Shown here in pieces: positions 4,547-24,341 of a stretch of DNA of 29,531 bases; positions within the stretch are counted from its first letter, which is position 1; every line of letters begins with the position of its first letter. The stretch is from assembly GCA_003697105.1 (NCBI GenBank), contig RFFQ01000083.1, forward strand, positions 1 to 29,531, in the 5' to 3' direction. The notes beneath the pieces were generated by a model. That model made no database searches, was not told where the DNA came from, and worked only from the letters and a program-made list of their open reading frames with translations. A program made the translations under genes and the position numbers. Origin of the DNA: Gemmatimonadota bacterium (GTDB lineage Bacteria > 4572-55 > J002).

Positions 4547-5479
4547 TTGGTAATTGAAAGTCAAAAAATTGATGCGATCATCCAATCGCTATCCCAATAT
4601 TTGCAAGGAAAAGCCGAAGCACTCAAATTGGCGCTGGTCTGTTTTTTTTCCGGGGGACATTTATTGATCGAAGATTTGCCGGGGGTCGGCAAAACCACGC
4701 TGGCAATCAGTTTGGCGGAAGCATTAGGGCTTTCATTTGGGCGCATCCAATCCACCAGTGATCTATTGCCCAGTGACATCACCGGTCTATCCATCTATAA
4801 TCGGGACAGCAGTACGTTTGAATTTCATCCGGGTCCCATTTTTAATAACATTGTGCTGGTGGATGAAATCAACCGGGCGACCCCCAAAACGCAAAGTGCC
4901 CTTTTGGAAGCCATGGCGGAAAACCAAGTCACCATTGAAGGCAATACTTACAAACTGCCCCAACCCTTTTTTGTGATTGCCACCCAAAATCCAACCGAAC
5001 AATTCGGCACTTTTCCGCTACCGGAATCCCAACTCGACCGTTTTGCCTTGAAGATTCGCATTGGCTATCCGGCACGAGCGGCGGAACGGGAAATCCTTAA
5101 AATTGGCAGTACGCGGGAGGATTTGCACTCCATTGAAGCCATTATGGGGAAAGAAGATGTGATTCAATTGCAACAAACCATCCGTAACACAGTTTACCTT
5201 TCGGAAAAAATTTTGGACTATATCTTGGACATTGTGGAAGAGACCCGCCGGAGCAAGTATCTACTCGCGGGGCTTTCCACCCGCGGCGCGATGGTGATCA
5301 CAAATACCGCCAAAACGCATGCCTTTTTCCATGAGCGGAATTACGTCGTGCCCGAAGACATCAAAGACCTAATCGAATATACCGTCCCCCACCGGGTCTT
5401 GTTCCGGGACGAATACGAAAATCTCAATCGTAAGGAGATCGTCCAATCGATTATTCAAACTATACCCACCCCCCTGTAA
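4547..5479 (+). CDS. MoxR family AAA+ ATPase
   Basis: A 310-residue cytosolic AAA+ ATPase of the MoxR class, thought to act as a chaperone that remodels or activates VWA-domain partners. Walker A is GVGKT (residues 46-50), Walker B VLVDEIN (~103-109), then sensor ATQNP and the arginine-containing LPESQLDRF segment; the lid domain follows with LLAGLSTRGA. Length is normal. It uses a TTG start supported by AAGGTGAGG. It lies 57 bases after the VWA gene and its 3' end runs into the DUF58 reading frame. The last codons contain a C6 run (5469-5474) directly before the TAA stop, relevant to how the next gene is started. Confidence 0.95.
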   Translation: MVIESQKIDAIIQSLSQYLQGKAEALKLALVCFFSGGHLLIEDLPGVGKTTLAISLAEALGLSFGRIQSTSDLLPSDITGLSIYNRDSSTFEFHPGPIFNNIVLVDEINRATPKTQSALLEAMAENQVTIEGNTYKLPQPFFVIATQNPTEQFGTFPLPESQLDRFALKIRIGYPARAAEREILKIGSTREDLHSIEAIMGKEDVIQLQQTIRNTVYLSEKILDYILDIVEETRRSKYLLAGLSTRGAMVITNTAKTHAFFHERNYVVPEDIKDLIEYTVPHRVLFRDEYENLNRKEIVQSIIQTIPTPL

Positions 5480-5514
5480 TCAAAATCACCAAAGCCGGGT
5501 GGATTTTTATCGGC

Positions 5515-6360
5515 TTGGTTATTTTTCTTGGATTTGCGGCGGTGAATACCTCCAATAACCTGATCTATATCATCGTTTCCACGTTATTAGGCTTCATAGC
5601 GGTATCTGGGGTTTTCGGCAAAGAAAATTTGAGCAAACTGGAGGTTGACTACGAACTGCCCGGTGAGATGTATGCTCAAAAACCGTTTCCGGTTCGGATT
5701 ACCCTCCGTAACCCGAAAAAACGGATGCCGGCATTTTTAATCTGGGTGGTCATTCAAGGGCAGGAGGTACTCTTTCCGTTCGTGGACTGCGGCGCCGAAG
5801 CAACGGCGTACCTCAATCTATCCTTTGAACACCGGGGCAGGTATCATCTTAAAGGGGGCTATATATATTCAGTCTTTCCGTTCTCGTTTATCACACGGTT
5901 TCGGACGATCCGGCAGATGGTGGAGGGCGTGGTCTTCCCGGAACCGAAAAAATGTGATATAAAAACAATCTACGAAATCGCGCAACAGCACTTTGGGGAC
6001 CACACCCTCAACCGTGCCGGGGATAGCGGGGACATGATGTCCGTGCGCGGCTACCAGTTCGGAGACCCGCTCCGGCATATTAACTGGAAAGCCAGCGCCA
6101 AAACCGGCGACCTGAAAACAAAGGAACTTTCGACGATTGCCTTCCAACCGGTGACGATCCATTTTGAGGCGCTTAATATCCCCAACATCGAAGAACGAAT
6201 CTCCAATGTAACATATATCATCCTACAATACGTGCGGAAAGGCGTACCCATCGGCTTGCGAATCCACGACCGCCTATACCCGCCCAATATTGATAATTCC
6301 CATAAAATCAGTATGTTGACAGAATTAGCATTGCATGGAACCGAAACCGATCAAAATTGA
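5515..6360 (+). CDS. DUF58 domain protein, true start upstream of the first canonical start codon
   Basis: Membrane protein of the DUF58 family, regularly encoded next to MoxR and VWA genes. It has an N-terminal membrane hairpin (residues ~1-35 of the TTG-started form), a beta-rich region, and the DUF58 signature near YQFGDPLRHINWKASAKTG. Oddity: the open frame reaches back to 5434, and the conserved N-terminal segment KITKAGWIFIGL is encoded at about 5482-5517, before the first canonical start (TTG 5515), which would cut the first membrane helix. No ATG, GTG or TTG lies between 5434 and 5515. An ATC start (5446 after AAGGAG, or 5479 overlapping the moxR stop), a slip at the C6 run of moxR, or a sequencing indel are the options. 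The 3' end overlaps the transglutaminase gene by 26 bases. The function of the family is unproven. Confidence 0.85.
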   Translation: MVIFLGFAAVNTSNNLIYIIVSTLLGFIAVSGVFGKENLSKLEVDYELPGEMYAQKPFPVRITLRNPKKRMPAFLIWVVIQGQEVLFPFVDCGAEATAYLNLSFEHRGRYHLKGGYIYSVFPFSFITRFRTIRQMVEGVVFPEPKKCDIKTIYEIAQQHFGDHTLNRAGDSGDMMSVRGYQFGDPLRHINWKASAKTGDLKTKELSTIAFQPVTIHFEALNIPNIEERISNVTYIILQYVRKGVPIGLRIHDRLYPPNIDNSHKISMLTELALHGTETDQN

Positions 6361-12953: not shown

Positions 12954-12983
12954 TTGACAAACTTGGAAGATTACCCTTATGAT
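12954..12983 (+). promoter_or_regulatory. Predicted sigma70 promoter for the CxxCH exported protein
   Basis: A perfect TTGACA at 12954-12959 and TATGAT at 12978-12983 are spaced by 18 bases, giving a leader of roughly 55 bases before ATG 13047. Confidence 0.7.
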
Positions 12984-13046
12984 TGCGCATATCTTACAAG
13001 TTGTAAATTCGATCTTTTTAAGACCTTTTTGCTGAGGAGTTCACGA

Positions 13047-13583
13047 ATGAAAAAATTTATAGTTTATGGATTGGTTGCATTGTTGATCCCCACCTTGAGT
13101 TTTGCCAAATCCAAGCAAGCCCCCTCTGAAAAAACCGGCGCTCCGGGTCAAAAAAGCTGCGTGCAGTGCCACAAAGATAATGACGTGAATAGTGGCAAGG
13201 GGAAAATTGTCATCAATGCGCCGCAAACATTTGAAGCCGGAAAGACCTACCCCATTACCATTGAACTGGTCGATCCACAACAGATGCGGTGGGGCTTCCA
13301 GTTGACAACCTTAGGCGCTGGAACCCTTAGCATCAGCGATAGTACCCACACCCAACTGGCAGAAGGCAAAAACGACGGTTTTCAGTATGTGGGGCACACA
13401 AAAACGGGTACATTTGCGGGTCAGAAGGAGATGGCAAGCTGGACCTTCAACTGGACGGCTCCGGCAGAGACCAAAGAAGTCACCTTTTACGCCGCCGGTA
13501 ACGCCGCGAATAATAATGAGAAAAAAACAGGGGATTTCATCTATATCAGTAAATTCATCAGCAAACTTGCAGAATCCGAATAA
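13047..13583 (+). CDS. Exported choice-of-anchor-V/Reeler-like protein with one CxxCH motif
   Basis: A 178-residue exported protein. Signal peptide MKKFIVYGLVALLIPTLSFA (1-20) is followed by a short linker and a single heme-binding-type motif CVQCH (38-42) in the setting GAPGQKSCVQCH. The rest is beta-rich, with VINAPQTFEAGKTYPIT and MRWGFQLTTLG, resembling the choice-of-anchor-V/Reeler-like domain in which an N-terminal GAPG...C..CH segment is common. A single c-type heme is possible but unproven. Start is ATG 13047 after GAGGAG (7-base spacing); the frame open from 12954 begins inside the promoter. It has its own promoter and terminator. Function unknown; probably periplasmic or cell-surface. 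Confidence 0.8.
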   Translation: MKKFIVYGLVALLIPTLSFAKSKQAPSEKTGAPGQKSCVQCHKDNDVNSGKGKIVINAPQTFEAGKTYPITIELVDPQQMRWGFQLTTLGAGTLSISDSTHTQLAEGKNDGFQYVGHTKTGTFAGQKEMASWTFNWTAPAETKEVTFYAAGNAANNNEKKTGDFIYISKFISKLAESE

Positions 13584-16939: not shown

Positions 16940-19900
16940 ATGACTCAACGGTTTTATCCCAATCACCCCCTCCATCAGATATTGAAACACAGAATCGTAG
17001 TACTTGATGGCGCCATGGGGACAATGATTCAATCCTATACTCTCACGGAAAACGATTTTCGTGGCGACCGTTTTGCCGATTGGCACTGCGATCTGAAAGG
17101 CAATAATGACCTGCTGTCATTGACCCAACCGGACATCATCCAAGCCATTCACCGGCAGTATTTTGAAGCCGGCGCAGACATCGTGGAAACCAACACCTTC
17201 AATGCGAACGGTATCTCCCAGCGGGATTACGACATGAGTGATTTAACGTATGAGATGAATCTTGCCGCGGCAACACTCGCCAAAGCCGCCGCCGCCGAAT
17301 TCACAGATAAACCGCGATTTGTCGCCGGTGCGCTGGGTCCCATGAACCGGGCATTGTCCCTCTCGCCGGATGTGAATCGCCCCGGCTACCGGGCTGTGAC
17401 CTTTGATGAAGTGGCATTGGGTTATTACGAGCAAGTTCGCGGACTGGTGGATGGCGGTGTGGATGTTCTTCTGGTGGAAACCATTTTTGATACCCTGAAT
17501 AGCAAAGCCGCCCTGTACGCCATCAATCAATTTTTTGAAGAATCCGGTAAAAAAATACCCCTCATGATGTCCGGTACGATTGTTGATTTGAGCGGCAGAA
17601 CGCTATCGGGGCAAACGTTAGAAGCGTTTTGGGTCTCCATCAAACACGCCGACCCGCTCAGTATTGGACTGAATTGTGCCTTAGGGGCAGATCAACTCCG
17701 CCCGTATGTGGAGGAGCTTTCCCGAATTGCGCCGGTGTATGTCAGCGCCTATCCGAATGCCGGGTTGCCAAATGAATTTGGCGGCTATGATGAAACCCCG
17801 GAACAGATGGCGGCAACCCTGCGAGAGTTTGCCACCAGCGGCTTGGTCAACATCATCGGGGGCTGTTGCGGTACGACGCCCGATTATATCCGGGCGATTG
17901 CCGCTGCCGTGCAGGATGTCCCGCCGCGCGAGTTGCCCCAACTCCCCCGATACACCCAGTTCAGCGGGCTGGAACCCCTCACCATCCGCCCGGATTCTAA
18001 TTTTGTGAATGTGGGCGAACGGTGCAATGTCACCGGCTCCAAACGCTTTGCGAAACTCATCAAAAAGGGCGATTTTGACGCCGCCCTCGCCGTGGCACGA
18101 GATCAGGTGGAAAACGGGGCACAAATCTTGGATATTAATATGGATGAAGGTTTGTTGGATTCCGAACAAGCAATGGCGAACTTTCTCAATCTACTGGCGT
18201 CAGAGCCGGATATTGCCCGCGTGCCGCTCATGATTGATTCCTCCAAATGGAGCGTGATCGAAACCGGCTTGAAACATGCACAAGGTAAATGCATCATCAA
18301 TTCCATCAGCCTTAAAGAGGGTGAAACGACGTTCAAACATCAGGCAAAATTAGCCCGGTGCTACGGCGCCGCCGTCATCGTGATGGCATTTGATGAGCAG
18401 GGACAGGCGGATACCATCGAGCGAAAATTTGAGATTTGCAAAAGAGCCTATCATATTTTAACCGAAGAACTGGATTTTCCACCTCAGGACATCATCTTTG
18501 ACCCCAATATTTTTGCGGTCGCTACCGGCATTGAAGACCACAATGAGTACGCCATCAATTTTATTGAAGCGACACGGCTCATCAAAAAGCATTTGCCCTA
18601 TGCAAAGGTGAGCGGCGGGGTGAGCAATCTCTCGTTCTCGTTTCGGGGCAACAACCCCGTCCGGGAGGCAATGCACTCGGCATTCTTGTACCACGCCATC
18701 AAAGCCGGTATGGATATGGGGATTGTCAACGCCGGGCAAATTGAGGTTTATGAGGAAATTCCCCACGATTTGCGGGAACGGGTGGAAGATGTGTTGTTTA
18801 ACCGGCGACCCGACGCCACCGAACGCCTGATTGAATTTGCCGGAACGGTGAAAGGCAAATCGAAAACCAAAAAAGAAGACGATGAATGGCGAAAAGCATC
18901 TGTCGAAGACCGGTTGAGCCATGCGCTAGTCAAAGGGATCGTCGAGTTTATCGAGGCGGATACCGAGGAAGCCCGCCAAAAATACAATGACCCCCTCCGC
19001 GTGATTGAAGGTCCCTTGATGGACGGTATGAATGTGGTGGGCGACCTGTTCGGTTCCGGTAAAATGTTCCTACCGCAAGTCGTCAAAAGCGCCCGGGTAA
19101 TGAAAAAGGCGGTCGCTTACCTGACCCCGTTTTTAGAGGAACAGAAAAAGCAGTCCGGTGCGCAAGCACAAGGCAAAATTTTGCTTGCCACCGTCAAAGG
19201 CGATGTCCATGACATCGGAAAAAACATTGTCGGAGTGGTTTTGGCATGTAATAATTATGAGATTATCGATTTGGGTGTGATGGTTCCCGCCGATAAAATT
19301 TTAACAGAAGCAAAAGCACAACAGGTTGATATTATTGGACTTAGCGGCTTGATCACCCCCTCTTTGGATGAAATGGTTCACGTGGCAAAAGAGATGCAAC
19401 GGCAAGGCTTCACCGTGCCCCTGCTGATCGGTGGTGCCACCACATCTCGCAAGCATACCGCCGTAAAAATTGCCCCCGCTTACCCGAACGGAATCACGGT
19501 ACACGTGCTGGATGCCTCGCGGGCAGTCGGTGTCGCCAGTCAACTACTAAGTGCGGGTCAGCAGCAGAAATTTACAGATAACATCCGCGCTGAGTATGCC
19601 CGTATTCAAGCGGATTTTGAACAGCGCACCCGCGAGATCAAGCTCCTTCCTCTGGAAGAGGCTCGGCAAAACCGGCTTCCACTGGATAAAATCTTACCGG
19701 TCAAACCCACATTCACCGGTACAAAAGTATTTGAGGATTATGATCTGGCGGAGTTACGAGATCGGATCGATTGGAGCCCATTTTTTGAGGCGTGGCAGCT
19801 CAAGGGCAAATACCCTCAAATTTTAACAGATGCCACCACCGGAGTAGAAGCCCAAAAATTGTATGATGACGCCCAACGGATGCTAGACCAGATCATCCGT

Positions 19901-20608
19901 GAAAAACGACTCACCGCTAAAGGCGTAATCGGCTTTTTTCCGGCGAATGCCGTCGAAGATGACATTGAGGTGTACACCGACGAACATCGCAACGGAATTT
20001 TAGCGGAATTTCATACCTTACGGCAACAAATGGCAAAATCGAAAGGACATAATCTGGCATTAGCCGATTTTATTCTGCCCAAAGAGAGCGGCACAATCGA
20101 TTATATCGGCGCCTTTGCCGTAACCACGGGCACCGGTCTGGCGGAATTCGTGGCGGAATTTGAGCATCATCATGATGATTATCAAGCGATCATGGCAAAA
20201 GCGCTGGCAGACCGGCTGGCAGAAGCCTTCGCCGAACGGTTGCATGAACGAGTCCGTACTGAGTTTTGGGGCTATGCCAAAGATGAAAATCTATCCAATT
20301 CAGAATTGATCGCAGAAAAATATGTTGGGATTCGTCCCGCACCGGGATACCCCGCCTGCCCCGATCACACGGAAAAAGGAATTTTATTTAATCTGCTCCA
20401 CGTTACCGAATCTACTGGAATTACTTTAACCGAAAGTTATGCCATGCAGCCGGCGGCGTCTGTATCGGGATGGTATTTCGCCCATCCGCAAGCGTGTTAT
20501 TTCGGCGTCGGCAAAATCGGTAAGGATCAGGTGCAGGACTATGCCAAGCGTAAAGGTATGTCTGTGGAAACAGTGGAGATGTGGTTAAGCCGTAATTTAG
20601 GCTATTGA
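16940..20608 (+). CDS. metH: Cobalamin-dependent methionine synthase MetH
   Basis: A full-length 1222-residue methionine synthase that moves a methyl group from methyltetrahydrofolate to homocysteine through B12. Domains in order: homocysteine domain (~1-330) with zinc ligands C246, C309, C310; pterin-binding domain (~350-620, [11 protein letters not shown]); B12 cap and cobalamin domain with axial histidine H757 in DVHDIGKN; and the C-terminal SAM-binding reactivation domain (~910-1222) with [12 protein letters not shown]. All key residues are present. ATG 16940 follows GGAG. Only 71 bases separate it from purQ, too few for a B12 riboswitch, so any B12 control would have to act further upstream. 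No obvious terminator follows. Confidence 0.97.
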
Positions 20609-20866: not shown

Positions 20867-22993
20867 ATGAACCCATCCACATTTGATTTTCGGATCGGGG
20901 TATTCCTGTTGATCGGGCTGATGATTGCCCTTAGCGGGTGTGATATTAACACCGATCCGGGCATCCCCTCGATTGAAAAGCGAGTGGTTATCCCCCTTTA
21001 TTATGAGACATTTACCGCGGATAGCGTCGCCGCTCAATCGGACTATTTGCAGGTGAATTCGGATCAATGCGATCTGGAATTGACCTACAGCGATACCCTC
21101 GACAGCCGGCGTCTGGAAAGTGAGCTCACCATCGGTACTATCTCCGAAACCGTCGCCGTAGAAGTCGGATGGATCGAATTGGAAGACCCCGGCGTAGCGG
21201 CATCCGATGCCATTGAACTGCAAGATTTCTTCCCGGAAGCGGCAAACCTAGATGAGCAAGAAGCCACCATTCCAGACATCGGCACCGTTGACCCCCTTTC
21301 GGTTGAAATCGCGGCATTCTCCACGTTTCAGGAGATCGAAATCGAAACCGCCGAAGCCACCGTTACGCTCGACAACAACTTAGTAATTCCCCTCACCGAT
21401 GTCTCCATCTATCTCTACAACAGCGATGAATCGACACCCGTCACCTTTGCGGAAATTGATGAAATCTTGCCCGGCGAGAGCCAATCCACCCCAATTGATC
21501 TAAACGGGAAACGTCTCTCCAACCAATTGCGGGCGGAAATTGGTTTTTCCTCACCTGGCAGCAATGGGGAGATCGTCCTTATCGATGCGGAAAGTTCATT
21601 CAATATTGATATGGCAATTCACCAGCTATCGGTACGAAGCGCCACCGCCCGTATTCCATCGCAAACATTTGAAGATACCACCCGCGTGACCTGGAGCGAA
21701 CCCAACCGGGTTATCTCCGCCGGCATCAGTAGTGGACGGCTACGCCTCGAAATTGAAAACGATCTGCCCCTGGCGGCGGATGAAATTTTGCTGGTTTTTG
21801 ATAATTTTAAGCAAAACGGGCAACCGTTGGAAGTCCCCGCGACACTGGAACCCTCTGGCAGCTCCATCGTAACCGTTGATATGAGCGGTTACGAACTCCT
21901 GAGCCTAGATGGTGAAGGCGTAATTGAGCAAATTCAGGCACAGGTGTATGTTCAAACGGAGGCGAGCGATGGCTTCCAGACCATCTATGCCACCGATCAG
22001 ATTCAGGCAAACATCCAGTTACAGAACTTCAGCTTCGACTACTTCCGGGGAATTCTTGCCCCTTCAGAAGTCGATCTGGGTGAAGTGGCTACCGGTTCGA
22101 TTTTTGGTGATGAAGTCTCTGGATTGGATTTTGTCCACCTCACCGAACTCCAAACCTACCTAAATGTGGAATATAACTGCGAAGAACCCCACGAAGGCCG
22201 CTTGTTTATCGACCTGACCGGACTGGTCATCGAAAGCGTGAAATACGAAACCGGCGAAACCCGTGAATTCTATATCGGTACGGTAGATTATATCGAATGC
22301 GGTATGAACCGGTTGGACGTGTCCGGCACCGGAGAGTGGGAAACTTTCGGGGATTTCTTCAATAATCTACCCGATTCCATTATCGTTAGCGGTTACGCCC
22401 GCATTGGCGACGGCGAATCCGAAGTGTACGTGGCGGATGATGATGAGTTACGCATCTCCGTTGACATCGAATCACCCTTGGTCATGGTTTTACCGGATGA
22501 AGAAGATGTCAACGTGATCAAAGTCCGCAGTACACCGGAAGAAATCGAAATGGAACAGCGTGTCATTGATGCTATTGGTCGAGGTGATATTTTAACGGTG
22601 ATCGGCACCGCGTATATCATCAACGGCTTTCCCGGCGGAGCACTACCAACCCTCTATTTTGGTAAAACACCCGATGCCGTTTTTGATGAAAATGCACCGG
22701 CAGAAGAGCGTCTCGTCTTGCTGGGTCAGGAAGAGGATATGCTCCGGGTGGGGCAACTCAACCCAGATGGCACTGTCGCCGAACCCTCCGAAAGTGTCAT
22801 TCAACTGGATTTAACACCAGAGCAAATCGACTTTTTCAATTCTAAATTCATTTACGCTGGGGCAACCGTGCGGGTGTTCGCCCAAAATGACAACCCGGTA
22901 CGATTTACCTGCGAAGATGTGGTGGAGATCTATTTTAATCTCGATATGGAAATCAATCTGAATGATGAATGGAGGGACGAGGGCAATGAATAA
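20867..22993 (+). CDS. Large acidic lipoprotein of unknown function with duplicated beta domains
   Basis: A 708-residue exported lipoprotein. The lipoprotein signal peptide ends in the lipobox ALSGC with acylated C25, followed by D, which in E. coli would mean inner-membrane retention; sorting rules in this phylum may differ. The mature part is Asp/Glu-rich, Thr/Ser-rich and predicted almost all beta. Two similar segments (about 160-263 and 289-395) share a layout of short aliphatic strands, an N-x-L-x-PL motif, a mid-segment P-G/S-E/S turn before a T-P/V-I-D/V-D strand, and a closing I-D/Q strand. They resemble LEA14-like beta-sandwich repeats. The last third has no recognised domain. Start ATG 20867 has AAAGGA 6 bases upstream. 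The stop lies inside the next gene (8-base overlap), so the two are surely expressed together. Confidence 0.7.
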   Translation: MNPSTFDFRIGVFLLIGLMIALSGCDINTDPGIPSIEKRVVIPLYYETFTADSVAAQSDYLQVNSDQCDLELTYSDTLDSRRLESELTIGTISETVAVEVGWIELEDPGVAASDAIELQDFFPEAANLDEQEATIPDIGTVDPLSVEIAAFSTFQEIEIETAEATVTLDNNLVIPLTDVSIYLYNSDESTPVTFAEIDEILPGESQSTPIDLNGKRLSNQLRAEIGFSSPGSNGEIVLIDAESSFNIDMAIHQLSVRSATARIPSQTFEDTTRVTWSEPNRVISAGISSGRLRLEIENDLPLAADEILLVFDNFKQNGQPLEVPATLEPSGSSIVTVDMSGYELLSLDGEGVIEQIQAQVYVQTEASDGFQTIYATDQIQANIQLQNFSFDYFRGILAPSEVDLGEVATGSIFGDEVSGLDFVHLTELQTYLNVEYNCEEPHEGRLFIDLTGLVIESVKYETGETREFYIGTVDYIECGMNRLDVSGTGEWETFGDFFNNLPDSIIVSGYARIGDGESEVYVADDDELRISVDIESPLVMVLPDEEDVNVIKVRSTPEEIEMEQRVIDAIGRGDILTVIGTAYIINGFPGGALPTLYFGKTPDAVFDENAPAEERLVLLGQEEDMLRVGQLNPDGTVAEPSESVIQLDLTPEQIDFFNSKFIYAGATVRVFAQNDNPVRFTCEDVVEIYFNLDMEINLNDEWRDEGNE

Positions 22994-24341
22994 AAAACCA
23001 TTACCGGTCAACGTAGAGACAACACAAATGAAAACCCGCTGGATACCATTGATTTGCCTTGGACTGATGTTAATCGGGTTGTACCCAGCTTTGACGCACG
23101 CACAAGGTACCGCCAGTTACCGCGCGATGGGGATGGGAAGTGTGCATACGGCTATCGCCAACGATGTGGACGCTTTCGGATGGAACCCCGCCCGCTTGGC
23201 ATTTGACCCCGAATATCACTTTACCATGAGCCTTTATCAATTCGGGATGTATGGACGGAACAACAGTTTTACCATTGCCGATTACAACGAATATTTTGAT
23301 AAAGAAAAAGTGATCTCTGATGCCGAGAAAGCTGACATCATCGGCAAAATTGAGGATGGCATGCTTAAAATCAATGCCACCGGGCAGGGAAACCTGTTGA
23401 GTGGCACGTTTCGCAATTTAGGCTACGGGCTTTCTGGGGGCTACAATATTGGAATGGTGGCGGCTGGCAGTGGGAAACTCACCGCTGAGTTTTTTGAAAT
23501 GTTGCTATACGATAACCTCGCCGGTACTCACTTTGATTTTACCGATGATGAAATCTACGGCGAAGGATTTGCCGCCGGCAGTTTCGATATTGCCCTCGCC
23601 CGGCAAGTACCGATTCCAGCACTCGCCCAGTACGGCATTCATCTGAGCACCGGACTAACCTTTAAATACCTCTATGGAGGTGGTTTCAGCCGGGTGGAAG
23701 AGGCGCACGGCATGGTTCAGATCGTGGATGAACTGAGTAACGGCACCAAAACCAAGCTGGTTGCCAACGGTCAAGCACTGGTGACCAGCGCTCTTGGCGG
23801 GAGCGGTTTCGGCATGGATTGGGGACTCGCCGCCACATACAACCAGTGGTCTGCCGGCTTGAGTATCGAAAATCTGATCGGTAAGATCACGTGGGATAAA
23901 GAAGTCGAGCAATCTTATGTGGATTTTGCCGTTGACTTCTACGGTGCAAATGAAATTGATGATTTTGATACCACGTATGTGGATACCACCTATACCCTAT
24001 CTCAAACCAAAATGGATTTACCAACGGTTTTCCGGATCGGTGCGGCGTACCAGCTCCGCCCGAACCTCCTGCTAGCAGCGGACTTGGAAAGTAGCCTGCA
24101 AGAGACCGGCGGTTATACCAAAGCCACCCGTGTTGCCCTCGGAGCAGAATATTACCCCACGTCATGGTTGCCTTTGCGGACTGGGCTTTCCGTTGGCGGT
24201 ATCGGTGGCGCGGCATGGTCAATGGGTACTGGGCTGGAGTTTGGGCACTTTTCCTATGGGATTTCCACATTTAATATTTTGGAGATCGGGGAAAATATCA
24301 AAAGCGTTTCCTTTTCCACAGGGATGAAACTACGCTTTTAG
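22986..24341 (+). CDS. PorV/DUF5723-like outer-membrane beta-barrel protein
   Basis: A 451-residue predicted outer-membrane protein. The signal peptide starts either at residue 1 or at M15 (MKTRWIPLICLGLMLIG) and probably ends after ALTHA at about 39. The mature N-terminus GTASYRAMGMGSVHTAIAND and NPARLAF match the PorV/UPF0164/DUF5723 style, followed by alternating beta strands and the C-terminal barrel signature ending KLRF. GGAGGG lies 9 bases before ATG 22986, inside the end of the lipoprotein gene. Proteins of this style act as outer-membrane shuttles or adhesin-like barrels in FCB bacteria; the specific role here is unknown, but the overlap argues for partnership with the lipoprotein. 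Its stop overlaps the convergent menE stop by 12 bases. Confidence 0.75.
   Translation: MNKKPLPVNVETTQMKTRWIPLICLGLMLIGLYPALTHAQGTASYRAMGMGSVHTAIANDVDAFGWNPARLAFDPEYHFTMSLYQFGMYGRNNSFTIADYNEYFDKEKVISDAEKADIIGKIEDGMLKINATGQGNLLSGTFRNLGYGLSGGYNIGMVAAGSGKLTAEFFEMLLYDNLAGTHFDFTDDEIYGEGFAAGSFDIALARQVPIPALAQYGIHLSTGLTFKYLYGGGFSRVEEAHGMVQIVDELSNGTKTKLVANGQALVTSALGGSGFGMDWGLAATYNQWSAGLSIENLIGKITWDKEVEQSYVDFAVDFYGANEIDDFDTTYVDTTYTLSQTKMDLPTVFRIGAAYQLRPNLLLAADLESSLQETGGYTKATRVALGAEYYPTSWLPLRTGLSVGGIGGAAWSMGTGLEFGHFSYGISTFNILEIGENIKSVSFSTGMKLRF

Follow-up and report, generated by a model that had tools for sequence, protein, structure and literature searches.

A lipoprotein and a predicted FadL-fold barrel encoded as neighbours across uncultured FCB phyla

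The gene pair and its lipoprotein

Between positions 20867 and 24341 of the window, by which we mean the whole stretch of 29,531 nucleotides that was analysed, lie two genes, both on the forward strand, as are all the features of the pair described below. The first (20867–22993, with the ATG at 20867 and the stop at 22993) encodes a lipoprotein of 708 amino acids and the second (22986–24341, with the ATG at 22986 and the stop at 24341) a protein of 451 amino acids, which falls in the DUF5723 / PorV–PorQ superfamily and is predicted to form an outer-membrane barrel of the FadL fold. At the junction (22971–22993) a GGAGG ribosome site and the ATG of the barrel gene are contained within the final codons of the lipoprotein gene, giving an overlap of 8 nt (22986–22993). 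This arrangement had been described, with coordinates that proved exact, in an earlier note on this DNA. Upstream, metH (16940–20608) is separated from the pair by a gap of 258 nt and downstream menE is convergent, so that the pair has the appearance of a two-gene unit. Scans for promoters and terminators gave signals at chance level only. Elsewhere in the window are cmr6 of a type III-B CRISPR system, right at the edge (3–962), an AAA ATPase (MoxR/BchD-like) followed by a DUF58-like protein (4547–6360) and a protein with a choice-of-anchor V domain (12954–13583).

The lipoprotein has a signal peptide and a lipobox, LSGC, with Cys25 as the lipid anchor. The lipidated tail, from Cys25 to residue 45 (20939–21001), carries, a few positions past the cysteine, a PxxPx[W/F/Y/I] motif that is present in all 35 of the aligned lipoproteins, and residues 31–45 form the best conserved block of the protein (score 2.55, compared with a mean of 1.70). 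Surface-exposed lipoproteins of the Bacteroidota are recognised by at least two acidic residues among the first six past the lipid-anchor cysteine. The window lipoprotein has these (DINTDP), as do 11 of the 35 members overall, which gives no indication of surface export for most of the family.

Residues 136–262 (R1) and 263–400 (R2), encoded together by 21272–22066, are related to one another (hhalign 98.4%, E 9.7e-15), and profile comparison links both of them, more weakly, to segments nearer the C-terminus. Beyond its tail, then, the lipoprotein is a tandem array of related beta-sandwiches, in keeping with the multi-domain protein that the earlier note had described. Members of the family range from 210 to 985 amino acids, with the main difference being the number of inserted sandwiches. 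R1 and R2 are missing from short members, such as one of 353 amino acids at locus L035. The note had also called the lipoprotein uncharacterised, and neither Pfam nor NCBIfam places it in a family; the same is true of its relatives, with the exception of two weak matches to choice_anch_K. Direct sequence search gave no credible match in the PDB.

The AlphaFold2 model of the lipoprotein (pLDDT 84.6, pTM 0.57) has one standout structural match, 4h3w, which is BDI_1231 of Parabacteroides distasonis (Foldseek 6e-11). The two align over 300 residues with a Z of 11.2 and an rmsd of 7.1, the next-best structure having a Z of 7.6. The sequence profile independently, if weakly, picks out the same structure (E 0.029) over profile positions 395–581, which lie in the C-terminal part, where residues 401–708 (22067–22990) make up the core of the protein. 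The 4h3w protein belongs to DUF4621 (PF15414), a family of unknown function whose members, at around 330 amino acids, are too short to contain the inserted R1–R2 sandwiches. The Pfam model of DUF4621 matched neither the window lipoprotein nor those of its relatives that were scanned, and a fragment of 4h3w had no match in the 153 genomes surveyed. No similarity to BamH was seen in any search with the window lipoprotein, nor was BamH among the structural matches listed.

The barrel and its relation to PorV and BamG

The model of the barrel (pLDDT 82.3, pTM 0.78), whose sequence ends in a C-terminal phenylalanine, adopts the FadL fold. It is closest to CymD, TodX and FadL, channels for hydrocarbons and fatty acids, with Z of 27–28, followed by PorV (8gl6_F; Z 25.9, 277 residues aligned, rmsd 7.5, 19% identity) and BamG (Z 23.8). 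The hatch of FadL has an NPA motif, which the barrel retains as N67-P68-A69; across 30 barrel sequences N67 and A69 do not vary and P68 hardly does. When scored against curated models the barrel reached 48.6 bits for PorV–PorQ (NF033709, cut-off 90), 24.3 bits for PorV (NF033710, cut-off 250), 22.8 bits for BamG (NF053685, cut-off 250) and 17.6 bits for FadL/TodX (PF03349, gathering score 29.7). Judged by its sequence it is nearer to PorV than to BamG while lying below every curated cut-off. Among solved structures its sequence profile best matches PorV, in the N-terminal plug (E 5e-6). The relatives of the barrel match NF033709 in 27 of 30 cases, at E up to 0.001, and DUF5723 (PF18990), a family with no assigned function, in 26 of the 30, at best with 2.7e-26, although the DUF5723 model does not match the window barrel itself. 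No model of PorP/SprF is among the known families that the barrel matches. A literature search gave no papers on DUF5723 and none of relevance on DUF4621. The description of the barrel in the earlier note as PorV-like is thus apt for its fold and its place in the PorV/FadL superfamily but not for PorV identity.

The source genome contains several genes of the PorV family that are closer to PorV than the window barrel is. It also has a separate, full-length BamG on contig C69 (202 bits and 1.5e-59 to NF053685; 2.5e-25 to the solved BamG), with the gene for a lipoprotein of 457 amino acids directly upstream (L104, 6517–9152). From its position and a weak repeat-domain match this lipoprotein is a plausible BamH, although searches gave it no match to the solved BamH. 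As the genome has both this BamG, with its neighbouring lipoprotein, and the closer PorV-family genes, we rejected the assignment of the pair as the BamG–BamH of the BAM and, with the scores below the cut-offs, that of the barrel as standard PorV. In a quick tree the barrels of the pair form their own group, separate from the PorV-like and BamG-like genes of the genome, though with a support of 0.68 this grouping is only a hint.

Conservation of the pair and its genomic neighbours

Scanning 84,980 species with a small alignment of barrels gave 61 named loci, and in all 61 the lipoprotein gene is directly upstream of the barrel gene on the same strand; since the loci were collected through the barrel, this measures how often a barrel has its partner and not absence from genomes. 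With both genes, in this order and on one strand, at every one of these loci, a chance origin of the pairing is ruled out. The lipoprotein profile was grown from the window lipoprotein, and the first round, with a single sequence, already gave 48 members. Going by their labels, the loci that bear the pair are mostly from Zixibacteria, with others from Calditrichota, KSB1, Krumholzibacteriia, Eisenbacteria, Latescibacterota, Cloacimonadota and WOR-3 MAGs, together with lone MAGs labelled Gemmatimonas, Fibrobacter and Ignavibacterium, whose labels may be wrong. Hence the neighbourhood, which the earlier note had expected to be lost in relatives if its reading were mistaken, is kept across the FCB phyla.

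The same picture emerged from smaller sets of genomes. When 60 relative genomes were searched with single sequences, the two genes were already seen to adjoin one another in distant genomes. Amongst 153 relatives the barrel profile identified 22 genomes at 1e-10 and the lipoprotein profile 18, with the strong cases being neighbours and nearly all of the strong barrels having a lipoprotein upstream. One genome (G046) keeps both genes on different contigs, another (G149) has an additional copy of the barrel that stands alone, and in a third (G082) the neighbour of the barrel is a lipoprotein of 195 amino acids that the lipoprotein profile does not recognise. The distribution of the pair is mostly single-copy and housekeeping-like. 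The spacing of the genes is variable: in 68 pairs they overlap in 13, are separated by 0–30 nt in 45 and by a wider gap in 10. The overlap was rejected as a conserved coupling on these numbers, and the fixed stoichiometry that had been read from it in the window does not follow from an arrangement kept in so few of the pairs.

No genes of the type 9 secretion system (T9SS) were found within the window. SprA and T9SS C-terminal domains, for which the earlier note had proposed a check, are represented elsewhere in the source genome, SprA on contig C74 and the C-terminal signals around 100 times, and the genome also has a PorU sortase, above its cut-off, on contig C113. SprA is found in all 22 of the genomes bearing the barrel and in 18 of 18 bearing the lipoprotein, compared with 46 of the 153 overall (hypergeometric p 2e-11, uncorrected for kinship), a co-occurrence that may only mirror shared FCB ancestry. 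There are 28 SprA genomes, out of the 46, without the lipoprotein, among them the only genome of the same class as the source (G001), which has SprA and lacks the pair. In one genome (G008) the lipoprotein gene is preceded on its own strand by sprA, with 81 nt between the two, and in a KSB1 MAG sprA begins about 4 kb beyond the downstream end of the pair. An M6 metalloprotease is encoded by the next gene after the barrel, on the same strand, in 31 of the 61 loci, mostly those of Zixibacteria; the gap between this gene and that of the barrel is usually no more than 30 nt, and complete copies of the protease end in a T9SS-type C-terminal domain. Besides these adjacent genes there are fusions: two barrels (L039, 6980–8980; L045, 6908–8911) continue into thrombospondin-3 repeats and an OmpA peptidoglycan-binding domain, echoing PorP–PorE (PMC9143113).

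Possible roles of the pair

Modules made up of a FadL-fold barrel and a lipoprotein are already known in this bacterial group, in BamG–BamH and PorP–PorE. This qualifies the earlier suggestion of an undescribed system. BamG carries the lipoprotein BamH at BamA (PMC12611786, PMC12578637) and the N-terminus of BamH after the cysteine is highly conserved and wedged in BamG (PMC12578637), while PorV carries type A cargo at SprA (PMC10994853) and PorP–PorE anchors type B cargo (PMC9143113). The window pair resembles BamG–BamH in joining a barrel predicted to have the FadL fold to a lipoprotein partner with a strongly conserved post-cysteine N-terminus, but differs from it in that the barrel is far under the BamG cut-off and the lipoprotein is of another family. 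The C69 BamG locus of the same genome has a similar layout, with a lipoprotein gene followed by the gene for a FadL-fold barrel. PorV shares its fold with the window barrel and is its top sequence match among solved structures, whereas the cut-off for PorV is missed and the barrels of the pair seem to group apart. PorP/SprF–PorE (PMC9143113) likewise combines a FadL-family barrel with a lipoprotein, and an OmpA-type domain is fused in two relatives of the pair, although in the window lipoprotein no PorE domain is recognised.

Lipoprotein and barrel are likely to make up a surface complex, so far undescribed, with a function in handling proteins at the outer membrane. Because the lipidated tail is most like that of BamH and the neighbouring genes point to the T9SS, we favour a T9SS-linked outer-membrane complex built like BamG–BamH, with a lipoprotein dedicated to a FadL-fold barrel, a reading to which we would give only a little short of an even chance. 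In this model the two proteins would be in contact as one outer-membrane complex, with the conserved lipidated tail docking on the barrel and the array of beta-sandwiches standing over it, or possibly under it, depending on the side of the membrane, as BamH does on BamG. The pair would then add to PorV and BamG a third module of the FadL type in these bacteria. It would most likely work with the T9SS, either receiving, processing or anchoring proteins that leave via SprA or supporting SprA itself. More tentatively, it may be a previously undescribed core complex of the non-Bacteroidota FCB phyla, acting as this third module on T9SS cargo after SprA, to receive, process or anchor it. For the export or attachment role that had been proposed from the window, the support is one of association.

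The gene order, being the same as that of the genome's own BamG locus, would also suit a second BAM-type accessory, a pair that, like BamG–BamH, helps to fold or insert certain outer-membrane proteins, SprA included, and does not act on T9SS cargo. BamH2 and BamG2 of Bacteroides share a putative operon (PMC12578637), the similarity of the barrel model to BamG (Z 23.8) is in line with such a function and the correlation with SprA would be expected if SprA were a client. We consider this unlikely, however, given that BamG is encoded separately with a lipoprotein neighbour of its own, that the window barrel scores 22.8 bits where the BamG cut-off is 250, that the searches with the window lipoprotein gave no similarity to BamH and that no bam gene was seen near the pair.

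Slightly less probable again is a FadL-type channel for hydrophobic molecules, for which the lipoprotein would capture the substrate outside. The nearest structures to the barrel, CymD, TodX and FadL (Z 27–28), and the retained NPA hatch motif are what would be expected of such a channel; the fold would suit a transporter equally well and beta-sandwich domains are often found in proteins that bind ligands. On the other hand, PorV and BamG have the FadL fold and neither is known as a transporter, the lipoprotein belongs to no known ligand-binding family and, rather than catabolic genes, it is the T9SS-tagged protease that recurs next to the pair. The third alternative, which seems the least likely, is a structural role in the envelope, with the pair linking a surface layer or matrix to the outer membrane and, where OmpA is fused, to peptidoglycan. 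The variable number of beta-sandwich repeats (in lipoproteins of 210 to 985 amino acids) does look like a spacer, and the OmpA fusion in two MAGs and the mostly single-copy, housekeeping-like distribution would fit, but the T9SS-tagged protease and the sprA neighbours are left unexplained and few of the barrels are fused to OmpA.

The structural and genetic work cited here on the T9SS and the modified BAM is from Bacteroidota, and the pair, unnamed and with its orphan lipoprotein family, is conserved over many uncultured FCB phyla. If the T9SS-linked complex is correct, the outer-membrane machinery of these phyla would have a component that is missing from the Bacteroidota models or, alternatively, one that the Bacteroidota retain only in a shortened form (DUF4621). 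The pair provides a concrete two-gene target.

On contig C5 of one genome (G055) the order barrel–lipoprotein–barrel is seen (625–3468 of L142; 1507–2823 of L139), which represents a second, diverged copy of the pair. In separate lineages, genes of the methionine cycle lie upstream of the barrel or of the whole pair, with metH at this position in the window and metK–ahcY, on the same strand, in five loci (L030, L036, L065, L082 and L095).
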